In this document: piece after piece, positions 1 to 39,817 of the stretch
Numbering within the stretch: position 1 is the stretch's first letter
Layout: the number at the start of each line of letters is the position of its first letter
From: Candidatus Babelota bacterium
GTDB lineage: Bacteria; Babelota; Babeliae; Babelales; JACPOV01
DNA: 46,116 nucleotides
Reading direction: 5' to 3'
Assembly: GCA_022707425.1 (NCBI GenBank)
Contig: JAKJAQ010000006.1
Coordinates: 32,589-78,704, forward strand
Notes under the pieces: model-generated
What the model was told of the DNA's origin: nothing
What the model saw: only the letters and a program-made list of their open reading frames with translations
The model's database searches: none
Made by a program: the position numbers and the translations under genes

Positions 1-240
1 TTCGCCAATTGGAATTTGTTGAGCAGATTGATTAGATCTCCAACTGATAAGTCCGCCAATTCGTTCAATAAAGGATCGACCAGGAGTGTCATTATTGTTT
101 GAATGATTTAAAACTATACCTTCGCTGGTAATTAATAGCGGAAGAGTGTTTATTGCATTTAATGATGAATTGGTGTCTTCTTCCATTGAATGCAATGAAA
201 AAAATAGGCATAGACCAAAACAATACAATGATAATCTCAT
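1..240 (-). CDS. Exported hypothetical protein, N-terminal part only
   Basis: The open frame begins at an ATG at 238-240 and runs off the left edge, so only the first 80 residues are visible. Residues 1-18 form a hydrophobic signal peptide ending in Leu-His-Ser, followed by Met-Glu-Glu-Asp, a junction seen in several other proteins of this window. The visible mature part is Asn/Ser-rich, has no cysteine and shows no domain I recognise. A purine-rich GAGAGGGGGA element lies just upstream of the ATG as ribosome binding site. The next gene upstream on the same strand is separated from it by a terminator hairpin, so this gene probably has its own promoter. Function unknown. Confidence 0.75.
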   Translation of the reverse strand, partial: MRLSLYCFGLCLFFSLHSMEEDTNSSLNAINTLPLLITSEGIVLNHSNNNDTPGRSFIERIGGLISWRSNQSAQQIPIGE

Positions 241-304
241 TATTCCCCCTCTCATTGTGTGATTCTCTTAAGTTAGTGTGAGAGGATTATGCCAAAATTG
301 CAAT

Positions 305-348
305 AAAAAAAGAGAATGTTGTCTACTAAACAACGTTCTCTTTTTTTT
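305..348. terminator. Bidirectional intrinsic terminator
   Basis: An 11-bp stem (311-321 with 331-341, one G-T wobble) with a 9-nt loop is flanked by six A on the left and a run of eight T on the right. The hairpin therefore has a U-tract when read on either strand. On minus it would end transcripts of the small Cys-rich gene that stops at 359, separating it from the truncated gene below 240. No plus-strand gene is seen to its left. Confidence 0.8.
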
Positions 349-358
349 ATGTGTTATA

Positions 359-619
359 TTATTTATTGTTTTTTAACTTGCAGCGTTCTTCGTATTTTTC
401 AAGATCCCACGGTTTGCAATAACAATAATTTCCATAGGGATCATTTTCTACATACACCGGATTATCATCAGGTCGGCGATCACGAAAACCGCAAATTCCG
501 GAACAATAACATTGATTACTTGCGCTGCATTCTTCCTGCGAGGTTATTCGCTTACGCGCCTCGACATTAAGAGTACAAAGCGAAATCGCTGCAATGAAAA
601 ATATTAAAAACCGTTTCAT
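359..619 (-). CDS. Small Cys-rich exported protein
   Basis: 86 residues. A signal peptide covers about residues 1-21 (Lys-Arg, then a Phe/Ile-rich core, ending Val-Glu-Ala). The mature part of about 65 residues has seven cysteines, two of them in CYC arrangements (near residues 38 and 67), and many charged residues, which suggests a small disulfide-stabilised fold. ATG at 617-619 has AAGGA six bases upstream. It is followed by a bidirectional terminator and preceded by two other very small genes on the same strand, so the three may be co-transcribed. I do not recognise a family; it could be an envelope or secreted protein. Seven cysteines is an odd number, leaving one unpaired or available for an intermolecular bond. 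Confidence 0.8.
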   Translation of the reverse strand: MKRFLIFFIAAISLCTLNVEARKRITSQEECSASNQCYCSGICGFRDRRPDDNPVYVENDPYGNYCYCKPWDLEKYEERCKLKNNK

Positions 620-652
620 AATTTTCCTTCATCGATTTCTGCTCGCACTAAT

Positions 653-871
653 TTAATATCCGTTTCCGTTGTCATTATTATTATTTTTGTTGCCACCTTG
701 TTGTGGTTTTTGTCCTTGCTGAGGGTTTTGCTGTTGTTTTTGACCATGTTGTGGTTGTTGTTGAGCACCACCTTGTTTTTGTTGGCCTTTGTGTTGTTCC
801 CAAGATTTTTGTTGATCTTGTTTTTGACCACCTTGTTGTTGCTGACCATTATAATTTTTTTTGTTATCCAT
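653..871 (-). CDS. Gln/Gly/Asn-rich low-complexity protein
   Basis: 72 residues, dominated by Gln with Gly, Lys and Asn, and ending in an Asn run and a Gly-Tyr. There is no signal peptide, no cysteine and essentially no hydrophobic residue, so it should be soluble and disordered. The ATG at 869-871 has GGAAA eight bases upstream, which supports translation. A second long frame on the same strand (616-849) is a by-product of the repetitive base composition and lacks such a site. The neighbour at 918-1070 is a Lys-rich disordered protein, so this is a pair of small low-complexity cytosolic proteins. Possible roles are stress-related or nucleic-acid associated; nothing in the sequence decides between them. 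Confidence 0.65.
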   Translation of the reverse strand: MDNKKNYNGQQQQGGQKQDQQKSWEQHKGQQKQGGAQQQPQHGQKQQQNPQQGQKPQQGGNKNNNNDNGNGY

Positions 872-917
872 GAGATTTCCTTTTTTTTGATAACTTAGTA
901 TCTGTTTTAAATATCAC

Positions 918-1070
918 TTAAGCGTATTTACGTTTTGCTTTACGCTTTGATGATGCTTTTTTAGCAGTTTTTTTGGTTTTGGTTTTTCTAGAAGCAGTTT
1001 TTTTCTTTTTGCTGTCTCCTAAAAGATCCCAAAAAAAGACCATATTGTTATTTTTTTTGTGACGTACCAT
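918..1070 (-). CDS. 50-aa Lys-rich histone H1-like tail protein
   Basis: A short frame of 50 codons plus stop. Residues 1-20 contain a small hydrophobic patch (MVFFWDLLG, residues 10-18). Residues 20-50 are almost entirely Lys, Arg, Thr, Ala and Ser, including KTKKTAKKA, and end in KRKYA. Such Ala-Lys-Thr tails resemble the C-terminal tails of bacterial histone H1-like proteins, so DNA or RNA binding is likely, but the protein is much shorter than those. The ATG at 1068-1070 has GGA of AAAGGATAAATCC upstream. It lies upstream of the Gln-rich gene on the same strand, 46 nt apart. That this is a real gene is inferred from the ribosome binding site, the non-random composition and the clean start and stop. 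Confidence 0.65.
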   Translation of the reverse strand: MVRHKKNNNMVFFWDLLGDSKKKKTASRKTKTKKTAKKASSKRKAKRKYA

Positions 1071-1430
1071 GGATTTATCCTTTTTTTATAAGAAAGTAAT
1101 TATGATCATTCATTACTATCATAATAACAAATTGACAAGTAGAAAATCAATCTGAGCAAGTACATTCTCAAAAATTATCAGCTTTTTTTATAGTTTCAGA
1201 CAAAAATAGGCAATCATACATGCTTTATTAGAAATATAAAAATCATAATCAAGGAATAAAATACAATAACGAATAAATGTAAAATAATATTAAGCTCTTG
1301 TGTCATTGGCATTATAGCCATTATTTATATCACAAGAAAGATTGCTGTTAATAAAAATGTTGATTTTACTGTGCGCAGGTTGGTACGTATACATTAATAG
1401 AATTTATCAAATTATTTAAAAGGAACACGC
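1071..1430. other. AT-rich intergenic region
   Basis: 360 nt without a convincing gene on either strand. It separates the minus-strand small-protein cluster from the plus-strand UPF0391 gene and should hold promoters for both. TTGATT at 1360-1365 followed 18 nt later by TACGTA is a weak plus candidate with a leader of about 35 nt. A TTGTCA on minus (1132-1137 read in reverse) lacks a good -10 box. No hairpin followed by a T-run, tRNA-like cloverleaf or repeat was seen. Confidence 0.5.
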
Positions 1431-1601
1431 ATGTTATTAGATTGGGTAGTAATCTTTCTTATCTTGGCGTTAGTTGCTGGTGTATTTGGTTTTGGTGGAT
1501 TTGCTTCGCAGTTCGCCGGCATTGCACAAATTTTATTTGGACTTTTCTTAATTTTATTTGTGATTTCGCTCATTCAACGATTTATGTATCGTCGCCCGTA
1601 A
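1431..1601 (+). CDS. Small two-helix membrane protein, UPF0391/DUF1328 type
   Basis: 56 residues. Two hydrophobic helices (about 3-24 and 30-50) are joined by a short [10 protein letters not shown] turn, with a Gly-Phe-Gly-Gly before the turn and an Arg-rich end (QRFMYRRP). The pattern [21 protein letters not shown] and the length match the UPF0391 (YtjA/DUF1328) family of small inner-membrane proteins of unknown function. AGGA at 1421-1424 precedes the ATG. The stop at 1599-1601 lies one base from the stop of convergent ruvC. The overlapping frame at 1442-1624 uses a TTG start and lacks these features. Function in the family is unknown; a link to envelope stress is only suspected. Confidence 0.85.
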
Positions 1602-33306: not shown

Positions 33307-34758
33307 TTATGAATCTTTAAGCAATTTTAAAATAAACTCTTCAAGTTGTTTTCTGCTCATTGATTGATTGTAGCGAGCCACCAGTTGTTTTTCATTGAAT
33401 ACTAACATGCATGGAATAGTTGGCACATGATATTCCTGCGCAATTTCAGGAGAAATGCTGGTATCCACCTTTAAGAATGCCACTTGGTCTGCAAATTGGT
33501 GTGCTACTGCTTCAACTGCGGGCAGCATACGCATGCAACTTGGGCAATGTGGTGCATAGAAATCAATAACTACTAATCCTTGTGCCGCATCGATTATGTC
33601 TTTAATTTCTGCAACTGTTTTCATGAGTGGAATTTCGGCTCGTTCTTCAGGAACCCCAGAAACATATCTTTTTTCTAGTTGCGCCGCAATGTTGGTAGAA
33701 AAACCATGTTCTTGTAAAAACGCTACTGCATCCAGCGCTGCTTTAATGCCATCACCGGCAGCAACGCCTGCTTGCCGATAACGATGATCGGTCACATCGC
33801 CTGCGGCAAATATGCCTTTAAGTGAAGTTGCTTGCGTACGATCGGACATAGCGATCGTGCCTTCTGCATCAATTTTTAAAAATTTCTTAAATAATTTACT
33901 GTTTGGATCATGCCCAATTGCTAAGAATACTCCACTCACCGGCATCGTAGATAACGTATCGCTTTTACTGTCAAACACTTCTGCACCAGTCACCTGCGAA
34001 CCATCACCAATTACTGAACGAACTTGCGAGTTGAATTTTACTTCGATTGAAGGGTATTCGTGCAAACGATCTTGCATCGATGCTGCCGCTCTCATACTTG
34101 CACCGCGTACTAAAATGGTAACTTTTTTTGCATATGAAGCTAATTGAACCGCTTCTTCAATGGCAGAATCACCACCCCCAATAACAATGACTTCTTTGTC
34201 TTTATGAAATGGTGCATCACACACTGCGCACGTAGTGACCCCTTTTCCCCAATATTCTTTCTCTCCTGGAATTCCTAACGTTCGCGGTGTTGAACCGGTT
34301 GCAATAATAACGGTAAGTGCGCGCAATGTTTTACCATTTTCGGTGGTAAGTTCAAAAGGCCACACATTAAAATCTACTTTAACTACTGAATCATTAATTA
34401 TTTCAACACCAAATTGCTGCACTTGTTCTTGCAAATCGTTCATTAAATCGGTTCCGAGAATTTTTGTTCGTCCAGGCCAGTTTTCAATATAACTTGTTTT
34501 GGTTAATGCACCACCACGTTCATTGCCCGCAATTACCACCGTTTTAATTTTTGCGCGTGCACCATACAATCCAGCGCTTAATGCTGCTGGCCCTGAACCG
34601 ACAATAATGAGCGGAACGATATCATTCGTTTCTAATGCTTTTCGCATATCAATAGTTGGTTGCGATCGCCAATGCCAAATTAATGCACTTGCACCACTCG
34701 CGCCTAAAAGCACAATTGCCATTACAACAACAATCTTAATAATTTTGTTTTGCGACAT
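33307..34758 (-). CDS. trxB: Membrane-tethered thioredoxin reductase-thioredoxin fusion
   Basis: 483 residues: an N-terminal hydrophobic helix (9-28), thioredoxin reductase (about 47-355) and thioredoxin (about 380-480). The reductase has the FAD site GSGPAAL (54-60), the redox pair C177-A-V-C180 followed by DAPFH, the NADPH site GGGDSAIEEA and GIFAAGDVTD. The thioredoxin carries C405-P-S-C408 (WCGPC is usual) with cis-Pro in PTIPCML. TrxR-Trx fusions are known (Mycobacterium leprae), but the leading membrane helix is unusual. The ATG at 34756-34758 has AAGGA six bases upstream, so the helix is translated. Topology decides whether the enzyme faces NADPH inside or works outside. Divergent from an 11-Cys exported protein. 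Confidence 0.94.
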   Translation of the reverse strand: MSQNKIIKIVVVMAIVLLGASGASALIWHWRSQPTIDMRKALETNDIVPLIIVGSGPAALSAGLYGARAKIKTVVIAGNERGGALTKTSYIENWPGRTKILGTDLMNDLQEQVQQFGVEIINDSVVKVDFNVWPFELTTENGKTLRALTVIIATGSTPRTLGIPGEKEYWGKGVTTCAVCDAPFHKDKEVIVIGGGDSAIEEAVQLASYAKKVTILVRGASMRAAASMQDRLHEYPSIEVKFNSQVRSVIGDGSQVTGAEVFDSKSDTLSTMPVSGVFLAIGHDPNSKLFKKFLKIDAEGTIAMSDRTQATSLKGIFAAGDVTDHRYRQAGVAAGDGIKAALDAVAFLQEHGFSTNIAAQLEKRYVSGVPEERAEIPLMKTVAEIKDIIDAAQGLVVIDFYAPHCPSCMRMLPAVEAVAHQFADQVAFLKVDTSISPEIAQEYHVPTIPCMLVFNEKQLVARYNQSMSRKQLEEFILKLLKDS

Positions 34759-34895: not shown

Positions 34896-35498
34896 ATGAA
34901 ATTATTTTTCAAATTGTTCTATGCATTATTAATTGGTTCATCAATGAATGGTGTCATTCTTGCTGACACGGTCACACTTCCATGCGATTCTGAAAACAAA
35001 AAAAATGAATGCATGAATGATTGCTCAGCAGTAGATTGCGCAAATGAAATGAGACCATGCGAAGACAAAACTCCATGTTGCCAAATGCAAACAAAAAACG
35101 ATGAAGCTTCAACCGCTGTTGTTGCTCCAACAAGCTTAAATGCTCAAAATTCCACCATATGTTCTGTGGTAAAAAAAGTTGCACCTCTTTGTTTTGCCAT
35201 AGGCTTTCTCATGGCATACCATAAGCTTTCTGAAGTCGATGAAAAAATCGAGAAAAAAGCAACTGTTGCAACAACTAATACAAACTCAGCGACCGCTACA
35301 ACAACATCAACCGACGAAACCGCGAATAACGCGAAATCGGTGGTGAAAGCAATCAGTTCATGCTATAGCAAAACTATTGAAGACATAATGAAAGCTATCG
35401 TCGCTGTTTTTGCAACAGATATCATTAAAGAGTTCCTTAAAGAAGTAAAAAAGACCGGAACAGATTTCATTGCAGAAAATACATCTTTCGCCTGCTAA
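34896..35498 (+). CDS. Exported Cys-rich protein
   Basis: 200 residues. The signal peptide ends near Ile-Leu-Ala (about 23). The mature protein has 11 cysteines: seven within residues 30-65, including Cys-Cys, two flanking the hydrophobic stretch at about 89-107 (IC...LCFAIGFLMAY), one at about 155 and one as the last residue. A Thr/Ala/Asn-rich linker (125-150) and an amphipathic helical C-terminal domain follow. No family recognised. It is divergent from the TrxR-Trx gene with overlapping -35 boxes, so it may be a disulfide-bearing partner of that redox system; this is inference. A strong terminator follows. Confidence 0.85.
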   Translation: MKLFFKLFYALLIGSSMNGVILADTVTLPCDSENKKNECMNDCSAVDCANEMRPCEDKTPCCQMQTKNDEASTAVVAPTSLNAQNSTICSVVKKVAPLCFAIGFLMAYHKLSEVDEKIEKKATVATTNTNSATATTTSTDETANNAKSVVKAISSCYSKTIEDIMKAIVAVFATDIIKEFLKEVKKTGTDFIAENTSFAC

Positions 35499-35678: not shown

Positions 35679-38282
35679 ATGAAATTTTCTAGTAGAATTA
35701 AATGGGCACTTTATTGCCTTGGTTTCCTTACTGCGCAATCGGGCTTTGGTCCTCTTTATGCAGATGATCAAAACAGCCAAATACCATCACAAGAACAAGT
35801 AATTGAAGAAAAACAGGAAGAAACAACCGTTGCTCAAAAACAATTACAAGAAGATTTATTAGAACTTCATTTACGCCCTACGCTTGAACTCTATAAAAAA
35901 TTAGATTTTGTATTAGAACTTTTAGCGCAAGTGATCAATAACAATCAGGTGCGCGGCTGCAAGAAAACTGAAGCGCTTGAACACCTCAAAGAAATTCGAG
36001 GCTTAGTAATTCAATTACAAGCTGGCGCATCTCAATTTAATGATCCCAAAACTATTCAAATTCTCAATATTATTTTTGAACAAGTAGCAAAACATATCCA
36101 ATCATTAGTAAAAAATAGTTTTACAGAATTTAAACAACTCGATCTTGATGCAGCAATCAATCGCGCAATTGGTAATCAAGAAATTTCTTTTGATGAAATT
36201 CGTGCCTTTACTGAAAAAAATGAAAAATTACTGAAAATCGTAGAAGCTGAAGCTACCAGTGTTGGCCTTTCAAAATTAAATCAAGTGTACCGCCGCGCTG
36301 AAAAATTTGTTGTTGATCATCGCATTTTACCGCGCGCGGGATTAGCACTTTTAGGATCGGCATTTTTGTGGTTTTTAATTTCAAGCATTCGCAACGAACA
36401 ACCTAACCCAAAATTTGAACAACATATAAGATCTGAACTGCAAGATCTCGCAAAAATAAAAACTGCATTACAACAGAACGCAATACCAGAAAATGTTATT
36501 GCAGACACACTGAATCAACTTGCTCAAGCAAAACCAGATATCATTGAACCCGAAACAATTGTTAAAAGCGATTTTATCAAATTACTTCAAGGATACACGG
36601 GTGAGTTTCCGCGATTTGATGATAAAAACCATGTGGTGAATTTCGATAAATTAAAAGCACCCGGTACTATTGCCCTCTATTTAAAAGAGATTGGTATAGC
36701 TAATTTTATACTGCCTGCAATGCTTACCTGGAATATGTTTAGCGATGTTGCAAAAAACCAATTTAATGGTATCAAAAACTGGACCGGCAAACAGTGGGAA
36801 ATTCTCCGCAGCTATTTGCGTGGTGGACCGGTTATTCGCAAAATTGAAACCTGGAACCGCGATCCTCGTTACCGTTTTAGTGATGTGATTGGTAAAGGTC
36901 ATATCAAACAAGTATTAACACGCGTTGTTGAATATATTCGTGATCATGAACGCTTTGATCGCGCTGGTATTGTTCCTGCGGCCGGCTATTTACTCGCAGG
37001 CCCTTCACGCTCAGGTAAAACATTTATGGCCGAAGCGCTTGCTGGTGAAATTAAAGATGCATTGGCACTCAAAGGGATTACCGATAAATTTAATTATCTT
37101 AACTTCACTGCAGCTGAAGTACTTGAAATTGGTATTTCTAAAGTAATGGCTTATGCACAATTCAATGCTCCGTGCGTTCTCTTTATTGATGAAATCGATA
37201 TGCTCGGTGCACAACGTGACCGCAATGCACAATTGTTGTCTGAATTGTTGACTGCAATGAGTGGTGCAATGATGAGCAATGATAATTCTCGCCAAGTGAT
37301 TGTATTGGCTGCAACGAACGCGCCACAAAATCTTGATTTTGCACTGTTGCAACCAGGCCGTTTTGAAAAAACGTTGTGGTTCACTCACCCAACTTTTGAA
37401 GAACGTGCATTGTTCTTGGTAAAAGAACTTGATAAACGCAGCATTATGACCGTTGATCCTGAATATATTTACAAGTTAGCAAAAGAAACGGAAAATATTT
37501 CATTTGAAGGACTGCGTTCAATCATCATCACCGCGCTGCAATATGCGCGCGCAGAAGGCACCACACTTAATGCTGCACATCTTGAACGTGCATTTGATGA
37601 AGAAATTCGTTTAATTTTACATGAAGATCCGCGCCTTAGCCCGGAAGAAAAAAAATTGATTGCAGTGCATCAAGCAGGACATGCGTTAGCAGCTTCATTG
37701 CTCAATAGTTCACTTGCCGTTGCAAAAGTAACTATTTGCCCAGTAAACGTAAAACCTAAAGAAGAACCGGTGTGGATGAAATATGTTGATGAAAAAGAAA
37801 AACAAGAATCGGTTGAATATGGTAAAATGTTCACCATTCGCAAAGAACGTTCTGGCAATTTTAGTAGCCATGAAGATCTGATTGCAGAATGCACCATCGA
37901 TCTTGCAGGTTATGCAGCAGAAAAATTGTTGCTGGGCAACACTGCCTACACCTACCACCGCCACGATAATCAAAAAGCGTTGGCAATGGCAAAATACATC
38001 ACCTTTAAAGGGATGAAAGAAGATCAATTGCCAAAAGAAGTGCGTACACAAATGCATAATGAAGCGTACAAATTGGTGCAGGAGTGTGAGGCAAAAGTGA
38101 GCGAGTTGTTGTCACAAAACATCGATAAGCTCAAACTCATTGTCGCTGCACTTGAAAAATATTACATCTTAACAGGTGATGAACTTGAATATTTATTGAG
38201 TGGAAAAAAAATAGAATCTGAAATAGCTGCCACAACGGCAGCTGAACAATCAGCACTTGAAACTGCGCCTGCAGTTTCATAA
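35679..38282 (+). CDS. FtsH-like AAA+ protein with mutated protease motif
   Basis: 867 residues. An N-terminal signal or anchor (about 1-28), a helical domain of about 185 residues, a membrane helix (217-237), a linker of about 160 residues, an AAA+ domain and an FtsH-type C-terminal domain: the FtsH plan with enlarged periplasmic and linker parts. Walker A is G441-PSRSGKT448 (GPPGTGKT usual), Walker B FIDEID (D504/E505), second region of homology ATNAPQNLDFALLQPGRF with Q558 for the first Arg finger and R561 kept. The zinc motif is H664-Q-A-G-H668: the catalytic Glu of HEAGH is Gln. The third-ligand region (HRHDNQKALAMAK) is kept. It should bind ATP but probably does not cut proteins, so it may be an unfoldase or adaptor like plastid FtsHi. 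It heads an operon with two small exported genes. Confidence 0.92.
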   Translation: MKFSSRIKWALYCLGFLTAQSGFGPLYADDQNSQIPSQEQVIEEKQEETTVAQKQLQEDLLELHLRPTLELYKKLDFVLELLAQVINNNQVRGCKKTEALEHLKEIRGLVIQLQAGASQFNDPKTIQILNIIFEQVAKHIQSLVKNSFTEFKQLDLDAAINRAIGNQEISFDEIRAFTEKNEKLLKIVEAEATSVGLSKLNQVYRRAEKFVVDHRILPRAGLALLGSAFLWFLISSIRNEQPNPKFEQHIRSELQDLAKIKTALQQNAIPENVIADTLNQLAQAKPDIIEPETIVKSDFIKLLQGYTGEFPRFDDKNHVVNFDKLKAPGTIALYLKEIGIANFILPAMLTWNMFSDVAKNQFNGIKNWTGKQWEILRSYLRGGPVIRKIETWNRDPRYRFSDVIGKGHIKQVLTRVVEYIRDHERFDRAGIVPAAGYLLAGPSRSGKTFMAEALAGEIKDALALKGITDKFNYLNFTAAEVLEIGISKVMAYAQFNAPCVLFIDEIDMLGAQRDRNAQLLSELLTAMSGAMMSNDNSRQVIVLAATNAPQNLDFALLQPGRFEKTLWFTHPTFEERALFLVKELDKRSIMTVDPEYIYKLAKETENISFEGLRSIIITALQYARAEGTTLNAAHLERAFDEEIRLILHEDPRLSPEEKKLIAVHQAGHALAASLLNSSLAVAKVTICPVNVKPKEEPVWMKYVDEKEKQESVEYGKMFTIRKERSGNFSSHEDLIAECTIDLAGYAAEKLLLGNTAYTYHRHDNQKALAMAKYITFKGMKEDQLPKEVRTQMHNEAYKLVQECEAKVSELLSQNIDKLKLIVAALEKYYILTGDELEYLLSGKKIESEIAATTAAEQSALETAPAVS
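36978..37055 (+). repeat. P-loop segment duplicated at 38811-38888 (copy A)
   Basis: 78 nt encoding AAGYLLAGPSRSGKTF and the next ten residues of the AAA+ domain. It matches 38811-38888 at 66 of 78 positions without gaps. See copy B. Confidence 0.9.
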
Positions 38283-38298
38283 CGATTGAGGATAATTA

Positions 38299-38757
38299 AT
38301 GAAAAAACTACTTTTATTATCACTATTATTTAATGCATGTTGTTTTGCTCAACCTAATAATTGGAATATGCGTCCAACTTTTGATGAGCTATCTACAAAT
38401 GAAAAGCTGCTGGTTGAAGGATGCGGTGTACCTCTTTCTGACATTAGATTCCCTCATTTGAACAAAGTTAGTGATGAATTGAATTTAAAAAAACCACATT
38501 GTGCAACAGTTCTTGATTTTTTGACCCGTTACAACTCAAAAAAACAAGTTTTAGATGACCTCACCAAAGTATCGACACGCGAATTATTGCCTTGTAAGTA
38601 TCTAATACCCAATGAACTAATGGAACCATATCAGAAACGGTTCGAACAACTTCAAGATCAATTAGAATTTTACAAAGAACAAGTAAAACAGCTCGATCAA
38701 GAAGCAATTCAACTACTTGATAAAATAACTGCAGCAAAAAATCACAAGGATAATTAA
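38299..38757 (+). CDS. Small exported helical protein, first of a related pair
   Basis: 152 residues. The signal ends near Cys-Phe-Ala (about 17). The mature part shares with the next gene the order LLVEGCG, then PHC(A)xVLxFL, then a Gln/Leu-rich coiled segment (about 110-145) with QLDQEA. GAGGATAATTA precedes the ATG, 16 nt after the AAA+ stop. Its stop overlaps the next start by one base (TAATG). It lacks the P-loop segment of its neighbour and so shows what the unmodified family member looks like. Probably a partner or client of the FtsH-like protein, judged only by the operon. Confidence 0.85.
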   Translation: MKKLLLLSLLFNACCFAQPNNWNMRPTFDELSTNEKLLVEGCGVPLSDIRFPHLNKVSDELNLKKPHCATVLDFLTRYNSKKQVLDDLTKVSTRELLPCKYLIPNELMEPYQKRFEQLQDQLEFYKEQVKQLDQEAIQLLDKITAAKNHKDN

Positions 38758-39317
38758 TGAAAAAATTAATATTGTTACTTTTTAGTGCTGGCCTTTTTTC
38801 ATCTCATTTTGCTGCTGGTTATTTACTTGCAGGTCCTTCACGATCGGGTAAAACATTTATAACCGAAGCACTTGCTGATGAAATAAAACCTATAGAATTA
38901 TGCGATCGAGTTCTCGGCTACAGTAATCGACAACCCCATATAGATACGTTTAACAACCAAGTATTATTAGCTGAAGGTTGCGGAATAGCACATTCTTCTC
39001 GATCTGTTGGATACGATAAAAAAAGATATCCACACTGTGCCCAGGTTCTTGCATTTTTAGAAGAATACAGCAATCAACTTGCACAACTTGATCAAAAAGC
39101 AAAAGAATTACACACGGTAATTGAAGCAAACAATGTGAAATACGATAATATCATTGAATTCTATGTGCAGATTTTTTCTCAAGCTGATCAAAACAGTTCT
39201 GTTGAAGAAAAGATTCCATATAAACAAAGTCCCGATTCATTTAATGATGCAGCCATGGATCATTACATAAAATTCGCAGAAGAATTAAAAGAAAAAGGCA
39301 TCTCAACATCTGAATAA
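38757..39317 (+). CDS. Small exported protein carrying a copied P-loop segment
   Basis: 186 residues. The signal peptide covers about 1-18. Residues 19-44 (AAGYLLAGPSRSGKTF onward, to EIK) are 23 of 26 identical to the P-loop region of the AAA+ protein upstream. From residue 71 on it follows the neighbour at 38299: LLAEGCG, PHCAQVLAFL, then a coiled segment with LDQKAKEL. No Walker B, sensor or rest of an AAA+ fold is present, so ATPase activity is unlikely. The start has AAGGATAATTA in front, identical over 19 nt with the previous gene's start region. A terminator follows. The segment may be a mimic that binds whatever recognises that surface, or a chance gene fusion; see findings. Confidence 0.87.
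   Translation: MKKLILLLFSAGLFSSHFAAGYLLAGPSRSGKTFITEALADEIKPIELCDRVLGYSNRQPHIDTFNNQVLLAEGCGIAHSSRSVGYDKKRYPHCAQVLAFLEEYSNQLAQLDQKAKELHTVIEANNVKYDNIIEFYVQIFSQADQNSSVEEKIPYKQSPDSFNDAAMDHYIKFAEELKEKGISTSE
38811..38888 (+). repeat. P-loop segment duplicated from 36978-37055 (copy B)
   Basis: Aligned codon by codon with copy A there are 12 differences in 78 nt. Nine are synonymous and three change residues (Met to Ile, Ala to Thr, Gly to Asp). The frame is preserved and the segment lies directly behind the signal peptide. Confidence 0.9.
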
Positions 39318-39336: not shown

Positions 39337-39372
39337 AAAAGAGAGCAGCTTAAAAAAACTGCTCTCTTTTTT
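39337..39372. terminator. Bidirectional intrinsic terminator between convergent genes
   Basis: Stem GAGAGCAG/CTGCTCTC (39341-39348 with 39359-39366), extended by A/T pairs, with AAAA before and six T after. It serves the exported-protein operon on plus and rpiB on minus; the T-run touches the rpiB stop codon. Confidence 0.9.
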
Positions 39373-39817
39373 ATTTTATCGCATCAATTAATTCAATTCT
39401 TTTTTTGTAGCGGCCTTCTTTAAATTGCGCTGACAACCATTCGCGCACACATTCAAATGTTTGTGCTTGCGTCAAATAATCTGCGGGCAGCGCAATCATG
39501 TTGGCATTGTCATCTTCTTTTGCTAAACGCGCAATTTCAGGTTTCCACACCACCGCTGCATAGATGCCGGCAAATCGATTTGCTGTAATTGCCATACCTA
39601 CTGCGGTACCGCACAGCAGCACGCCACCATGTGCTTGTTGCTGCTGCATTTCGTGCACTGCAGCAACGGCAAAAACCGGATAATCTGACCGTTCGCTTGT
39701 TGGTGCACCAACATCGATCCATGAAACGGTGATTAAACTAAACTGCGTTTGTTTTTTTAGAAACTCTTTGAGTTCATAGCCGCGATGATCGGCACCAATC
39801 ACTAATGAGATGTGCAT
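39371..39817 (-). CDS. rpiB: Ribose-5-phosphate isomerase B
   Basis: 148 residues. It interconverts ribose 5-phosphate and ribulose 5-phosphate in the pentose phosphate pathway. Motifs: GADHRGYELK (D10, H11) at the phosphate site, SDYP (45), and the catalytic Cys in LLCGTAVGMAITANR (C69, E. coli C66). At the place of E. coli H99 (EHNDAN) the sequence is EDDNAN, so the ring-opening His is Asp102 here. GGAG lies six bases before the ATG at 39815-39817. It is 12 nt after the lipoprotein gene on the same strand. The substitution may alter activity or preference towards other aldoses. Confidence 0.93.
   Translation of the reverse strand: MHISLVIGADHRGYELKEFLKKQTQFSLITVSWIDVGAPTSERSDYPVFAVAAVHEMQQQQAHGGVLLCGTAVGMAITANRFAGIYAAVVWKPEIARLAKEDDNANMIALPADYLTQAQTFECVREWLSAQFKEGRYKKRIELIDAIK

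Follow-up and report, generated by a model that had tools for sequence, protein, structure and literature searches.

Short segments such as the P-loop beta-alpha unit probably passed from one protein to another early in evolution; most known cases are ancient, and their donors have been lost. The Rickettsia palindromic element is an in-frame insertion in genes that belongs to a repeat dispersed through the genome. In the FtsH proteins, the AAA domain faces the cytoplasm. Segments of 20-80 residues, named bridging themes, have been described as common to unrelated domains (Kolodny et al. 2021, PMC8136508), and P-loop prototypes, about 50 residues long and containing a single Walker A motif, possess a phosphoryl-transfer activity (Vyas et al. 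2023, PMC10119929). The FtsH/M41 family also comprises the plant FtsHi pseudoproteases (PMC8197885).

The locus described here is from a Candidatus Babelota bacterium. As in the bridging themes, a sub-domain P-loop beta-alpha segment is found in an unrelated protein context, but its donor is recognisable at the DNA level, next door, and its host is an orphan of no known fold. Like the P-loop prototypes, this graft is a beta-P-loop-alpha unit outside an NTPase domain; unlike them, it is natural, shorter and apparently located behind a signal peptide. The source gene combines AAA and M41-like domains and reads HQAGH for HEAGH, as in an inactive member of the FtsH/FtsHi group; it differs by being bacterial and by its long N-terminal part of about 190 residues, and the graft itself is no FtsH. 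The in-frame copying of a short stretch from a neighbouring gene also recalls partial gene duplication and short-tract ectopic recombination, yet these 78 nt, apparently old or from another allele, still encode a peptide with 88% residue identity. The graft is real and lineage-specific, and is most readily understood as a piece of a domain that was copied, within the genus, to a permissive region of an exported orphan protein. As one can name the gene that donated it, the family that received it and the insert-free state, its fate is open to direct study. If the peptide is under selection, it would provide a rare natural test of the abilities of a bare P-loop unit.

The window, i.e. the whole stretch of 46,116 nucleotides analysed here, contains as its best repeat a 79-nt direct repeat (36977-37055 and 38810-38888, 85% identical) whose copies are 1.8 kb apart. 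The corresponding codons align without gaps and in the same frame, with 66/78 nucleotides and 23/26 residues identical and nine of the 12 base differences synonymous, exactly the figures of an earlier note on this DNA. Third positions have drifted while the residues stayed. No exact run exceeds 14 nt, and the similarity ends abruptly on either side. By the well-established order of elements in the AAA fold (beta1-Walker A-alpha1), the graft begins just ahead of beta1 and stops where alpha1 ends, without the Walker B, the sensors or the arginine finger. An assembly artefact is very unlikely as the origin of the match, because the differences are scattered along the entire segment. Another AAA+ paralogue of the genome, envisaged in the earlier note as a source, finds no support: in the 1.03-Mb genome, the DNA of the graft matches the adjacent AAA+ gene with an E of 5.7e-19, no further match to the recipient gene, whatever the part, is better than 9e-4, the 186-residue protein matches nothing but this AAA+ protein and its own sibling, and no better donor was found by DNA or protein searches. 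The Rickettsia palindromic element was considered as a model for the graft and set aside, given that the genome has just one other copy, within the AAA+ gene.

Table 1. Features of the AAA+ gene, the two small genes and their surroundings (positions in the window)
Feature	Position	Strand	Basis or remark
FtsH-like AAA+ gene, 867 aa	35679..38282	+	Pfam, TIGR01241, motif scan, hydropathy
Source-like segment AAGYLLAGPSRSGKTFMAEALAGEIK: beta1, Walker A (GPSRSGKT), alpha1	36978..37055	+	Repeat search, alignment
Start context AGGATAATTAATGAAAAAA	38289..38319	+	Repeated at 38747-38777, 87% (repeat search, family D3)
Sibling small exported protein, 152 aa, without P-loop segment	38299..38757	+	ORF, alignment
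Small exported protein, 186 aa, graft at residues 19-44	38757..39317	+	ORF, protein search
Grafted segment AAGYLLAGPSRSGKTFITEALADEIK: residues 19-44 of the 186-aa protein	38811..38888	+	Repeat search, alignment
Part common to the 186-aa protein and two proteins of genome G004	38895..39122	+	RV[LI]G ... LLAxGCG ... YPxCxxVLxFLxxY
Terminator-like hairpin (AGAGAGCAG ... CTGCTCTCTTTTTT)	39338..39375	.	Between small gene and convergent rpiB; sequence

The AAA+ gene encodes a protein with a signal-like N-terminus, a part of about 190 residues that is likely periplasmic, a transmembrane segment (216-237), an AAA domain and an M41-like domain, as seen by hydropathy and Pfam (AAA 1.6e-21, Peptidase_M41 5.6e-13). 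Its score against the FtsH model TIGR01241 (160 bits) lies under the cut-off of 600 bits and, while the AAA and M41 parts are both matched, HQAGH replaces the HEXXH of FtsH. No clear break indicative of a mosaic structure was detected in this gene. The HQxGH variant (residues 664-668; loci L024-L028, L033 and L038) is shared by the four members of the genus, the present genome (G000) included, and by at least four further genomes of the order (G005, G035, G044 and G048); the remaining orthologues did not fit the motif pattern. A second FtsH-like protein of the same genome (L087, G000:C14, 947 aa) retains HEAGH. The HQxGH protein is a conserved FtsH paralogue that is probably dead as a protease.

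The recipient gene is intact, and its start codon overlaps the stop codon of the sibling (TAATG). The two small proteins are 39% identical and have in common a lysine pair followed by a hydrophobic stretch, and the EGCG and PHC cysteines. As pointed out in the earlier note, the sibling lacks the insert and shares the signal peptide and these cysteines; it also shares the start context, a repetition to be expected if the small gene was tandemly duplicated. In the larger protein, a complete Walker A motif of the GxxxxGK[ST] type (GPSRSGKT, residues 26-33) is present with all eight residues kept. The same note had stated that no AAA+ fold accompanies it, and this was confirmed: Pfam AAA covers residues 22-44 only (profile positions 1-23 of 131), at 12.4 bits for a cut-off of 21.2, and by this profile the Walker B, the sensor and the arginine finger are absent from the protein. 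Its hydrolysis of ATP remains unlikely, as no AAA+ fold surrounds the graft. A collinear BLAST alignment of residues 19-146 to the AAA+ protein was rejected as evidence of a longer homology, being carried by the 26-residue segment; without it, the comparison gives E values of at least 0.24, at the level of chance. AlphaFold assigned a pLDDT below 50 to residues 1-86 and predicted no P-loop fold there, which, with two sequences, is weak evidence, and no convincing PDB relative of the conserved part of the protein was found.

The earlier note had proposed a search of related genomes, and this recovered the family of the small protein but not the P-loop segment. Relatives were found only in G004, from another genus of the family, in the form of two small exported proteins. 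The better one matches residues 47-122 with an E of 9.3e-9; a family profile gives 6e-39 and 2e-36 for the pair by construction, since both are members of the profile. The part shared with them holds two conserved cysteines, and the 186-residue protein has the traits of this EGCG/PHC family in G000 and G004, namely the signal peptide, the two conserved cysteines and VLxFLxxY. In place of the P-loop, the G004 proteins have about 25 residues of different sequence (DENASDDNQPVFVKLTPEEKQLIE in one of them) between the signal peptide and RV[LI]G, and the sibling exhibits a third, shorter arrangement. The site of the graft is consequently variable in the family, and the P-loop state is derived and lineage-specific. 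No relative beyond G004 was detected in the 101 genomes of the order or among phages, plasmids, and viral and genome contigs, the other matches in the order being weak (E of at least 0.0028), and the two small genes form an orphan tandem pair. On the 4.8-kb contig L057 of G004, one of the two relatives lies amid a row of signal-peptide genes (176-1542, minus strand), adjoined by a 147-residue ubiquitin-like-looking and an ankyrin-looking protein with signal peptides, as judged by eye. These neighbours would fit a small protein that is exported and perhaps directed at a host.

The comparison of gene order with other genomes gives the same polarity. Among G000-G003 and G005, only G000 has the small genes between the stop codon of the AAA+ gene and the hairpin. 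In G001, G003 and G005 the convergent rpiB follows the AAA+ gene directly and in G002 a terminator does, with no reading frame for a hidden small gene in the 242 bases remaining on the contig. Because rpiB or a terminator follows the AAA+ gene in all of these genomes, the pair is most simply an insertion in the G000 lineage. The sibling starts about 17 bases past the end of the AAA+ gene, and this short gap suggests that the small genes and the AAA+ gene are co-transcribed.

The hydrophobic stretch of the small protein resembles a Sec-type signal peptide by hydropathy. Cleavage at HFA↓A would be poor (His at -3); the LLA↓G site within the graft conforms to the -3,-1 rule, and the protein may owe its cleavage site to the graft. 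The best explanation, held with about even confidence, is that the beta1-Walker A-alpha1 stretch of the genus's FtsH-like AAA+ gene was transferred, in frame, to a rapidly evolving orphan gene, itself an earlier arrival in the AAA+ operon. There it would have taken the place of a permissive linker that joined the signal peptide to the cysteine-bearing conserved part. The peptide would now most likely be the N-terminal segment of an exported protein, its hydrophobic strand perhaps lengthening the signal region or giving the cleavage site, followed by a helix. Judging from the signal peptide and the topology of FtsH, it would stand outside any ATPase, the AAA+ ring being across the membrane, and the two would not meet. 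This explanation is supported because the match is unique and in frame, the sibling and the relatives lack the segment, and the pair lies behind the AAA+ gene.

The origin of the copy can be approached through its divergence. Since AAGYLLAGPSR, which opens the segment, is shared among the sampled AAA+ segments only by G000 and G003, the source of the graft belongs to the genus; measured against the age of protein families, the graft is recent. The data agree with two histories: copying in cis long ago, followed by constraint, or more recent copying from a different AAA+ allele or lineage. In a form of the second that is less likely than the best explanation, the donor was the AAA+ gene of a different lineage within the genus, or an older resident allele that has meanwhile been displaced. 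The segment would then be a recent arrival whose synonymous differences are those between orthologues and whose peptide is too young to have decayed, and no selection is needed. The graft does behave as a third orthologue, with 63/78 identities to G003, compared with 64/78 between the source and G003 and 66/78 between the graft and the source. At four-fold sites, graft and source differ in 8 of 15 (0.93 substitutions per site, with a lower bound of 0.33 and an open upper bound), nearly the divergence seen between orthologues from separate species, the raw difference between G000 and G003 being 0.60-0.66 (45/75 in the AAA region). A tree of the 78 nt favours this origin, leaving the graft outside the G000-G002 pair and beside G003/G001 (bootstraps of 84 and 82), but it is decided by a few A/T-ending third positions, and the A/T-richness shared by the graft and G003 (GC3 of 8% and 15%) may mislead. 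Two replacements, A36T and G41D, fall at positions conserved in AAA+ proteins (A or V in 19/19 segments, G in 17/19), as expected once the AAA+ constraint is lost. Against a foreign donor, the nearest sequence is that of the adjacent gene of the same operon. The earlier note also suggested that the peptide seems to have been kept by selection after copying. The synonymous excess behind this claim stands, with changes at 9/25 synonymous and 3/53 other sites (Fisher p 0.0012) and, for G/C to A/T differences, at 7/8 and 3/32 (p 4.7e-5), both tests being silent on which side, graft or source, the constraint acted. Selection on the small protein is nevertheless unproven, because the source gene is strongly constrained and the synonymous divergence is near the between-species level; the excess may reflect constraint on AAA+ genes rather than on the small protein. 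Polarised with G003, G002 and G001 on an alignment read by eye, the graft branch carries the two replacements and about four synonymous changes and the source branch one synonymous change, the remaining differences being unplaceable. In a neutral simulation, no more than two residues are altered in 8% of the cases with six changes and in 0.4% of those with ten, and the result thus depends on the unplaced sites. Had the copying taken place in cis once the lineage had split off, the four-fold divergence would imply a long residence, and the small number of replacements assignable to the graft branch, two, would point to strong selection on the peptide, beyond the need of a filler, contrary to the best explanation. 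A function proper to the graft is possible though unproven; that it is an old, natural, minimal beta-P-loop-alpha unit, kept by selection while synonymous sites neared saturation and functioning outside any NTPase domain, is unlikely.

Such a function could take several forms. The earlier note suggested a decoy or dominant regulator, in which the graft would mimic the AAA+ protein's nucleotide-binding surface, acting on the hexamer or on its partner. The eight retained Walker A residues, the shared operon and the excess of synonymous over replacement differences are in agreement with it, the last being confounded by the constraint on the source gene. A decoy appears very improbable, because the small protein should be exported and the AAA ring, behind its transmembrane segment, is cytoplasmic if the topology is FtsH-like; graft and ring should be in different compartments, as homology and hydropathy indicate. 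Moreover, the Walker A motif is a buried nucleotide pocket and no docking surface, and A36T and G41D alter conserved positions of alpha1. By analogy with the designed P-loop prototypes, the graft alone might bind phosphate, nucleotide or nucleic acid, which would suit its coincidence with the beta1-Walker A-alpha1 element and the activity of the prototypes. It counts just 26 residues, though, no confident fold is predicted for its host, and in simulations isolated Walker A peptides have no privileged phosphate binding (PMC11959459), so that autonomous binding seems hardly more plausible than a decoy. A role of the repeat at the DNA or RNA level, as a recombination switch between the 79-nt copies or by base pairing, is the most far-fetched: the repeats are direct, in frame and close to one another, but their longest exact run is short and it is the residues, not the third positions, that were maintained.

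A gene at 33307-34758 (minus strand), conserved as a neighbour in G001-G003, specifies a protein that resembles thioredoxin reductase, is anchored in the membrane and has a thioredoxin-like part (CPSC) at its C-terminus; it adjoins a run of cysteine-bearing exported proteins. Upstream of the AAA+ gene, the product of 34896-35498 (plus strand) is an exported protein with a cysteine-rich N-terminal stretch, of 200 residues here versus 117 at the same position in G001 and G003.
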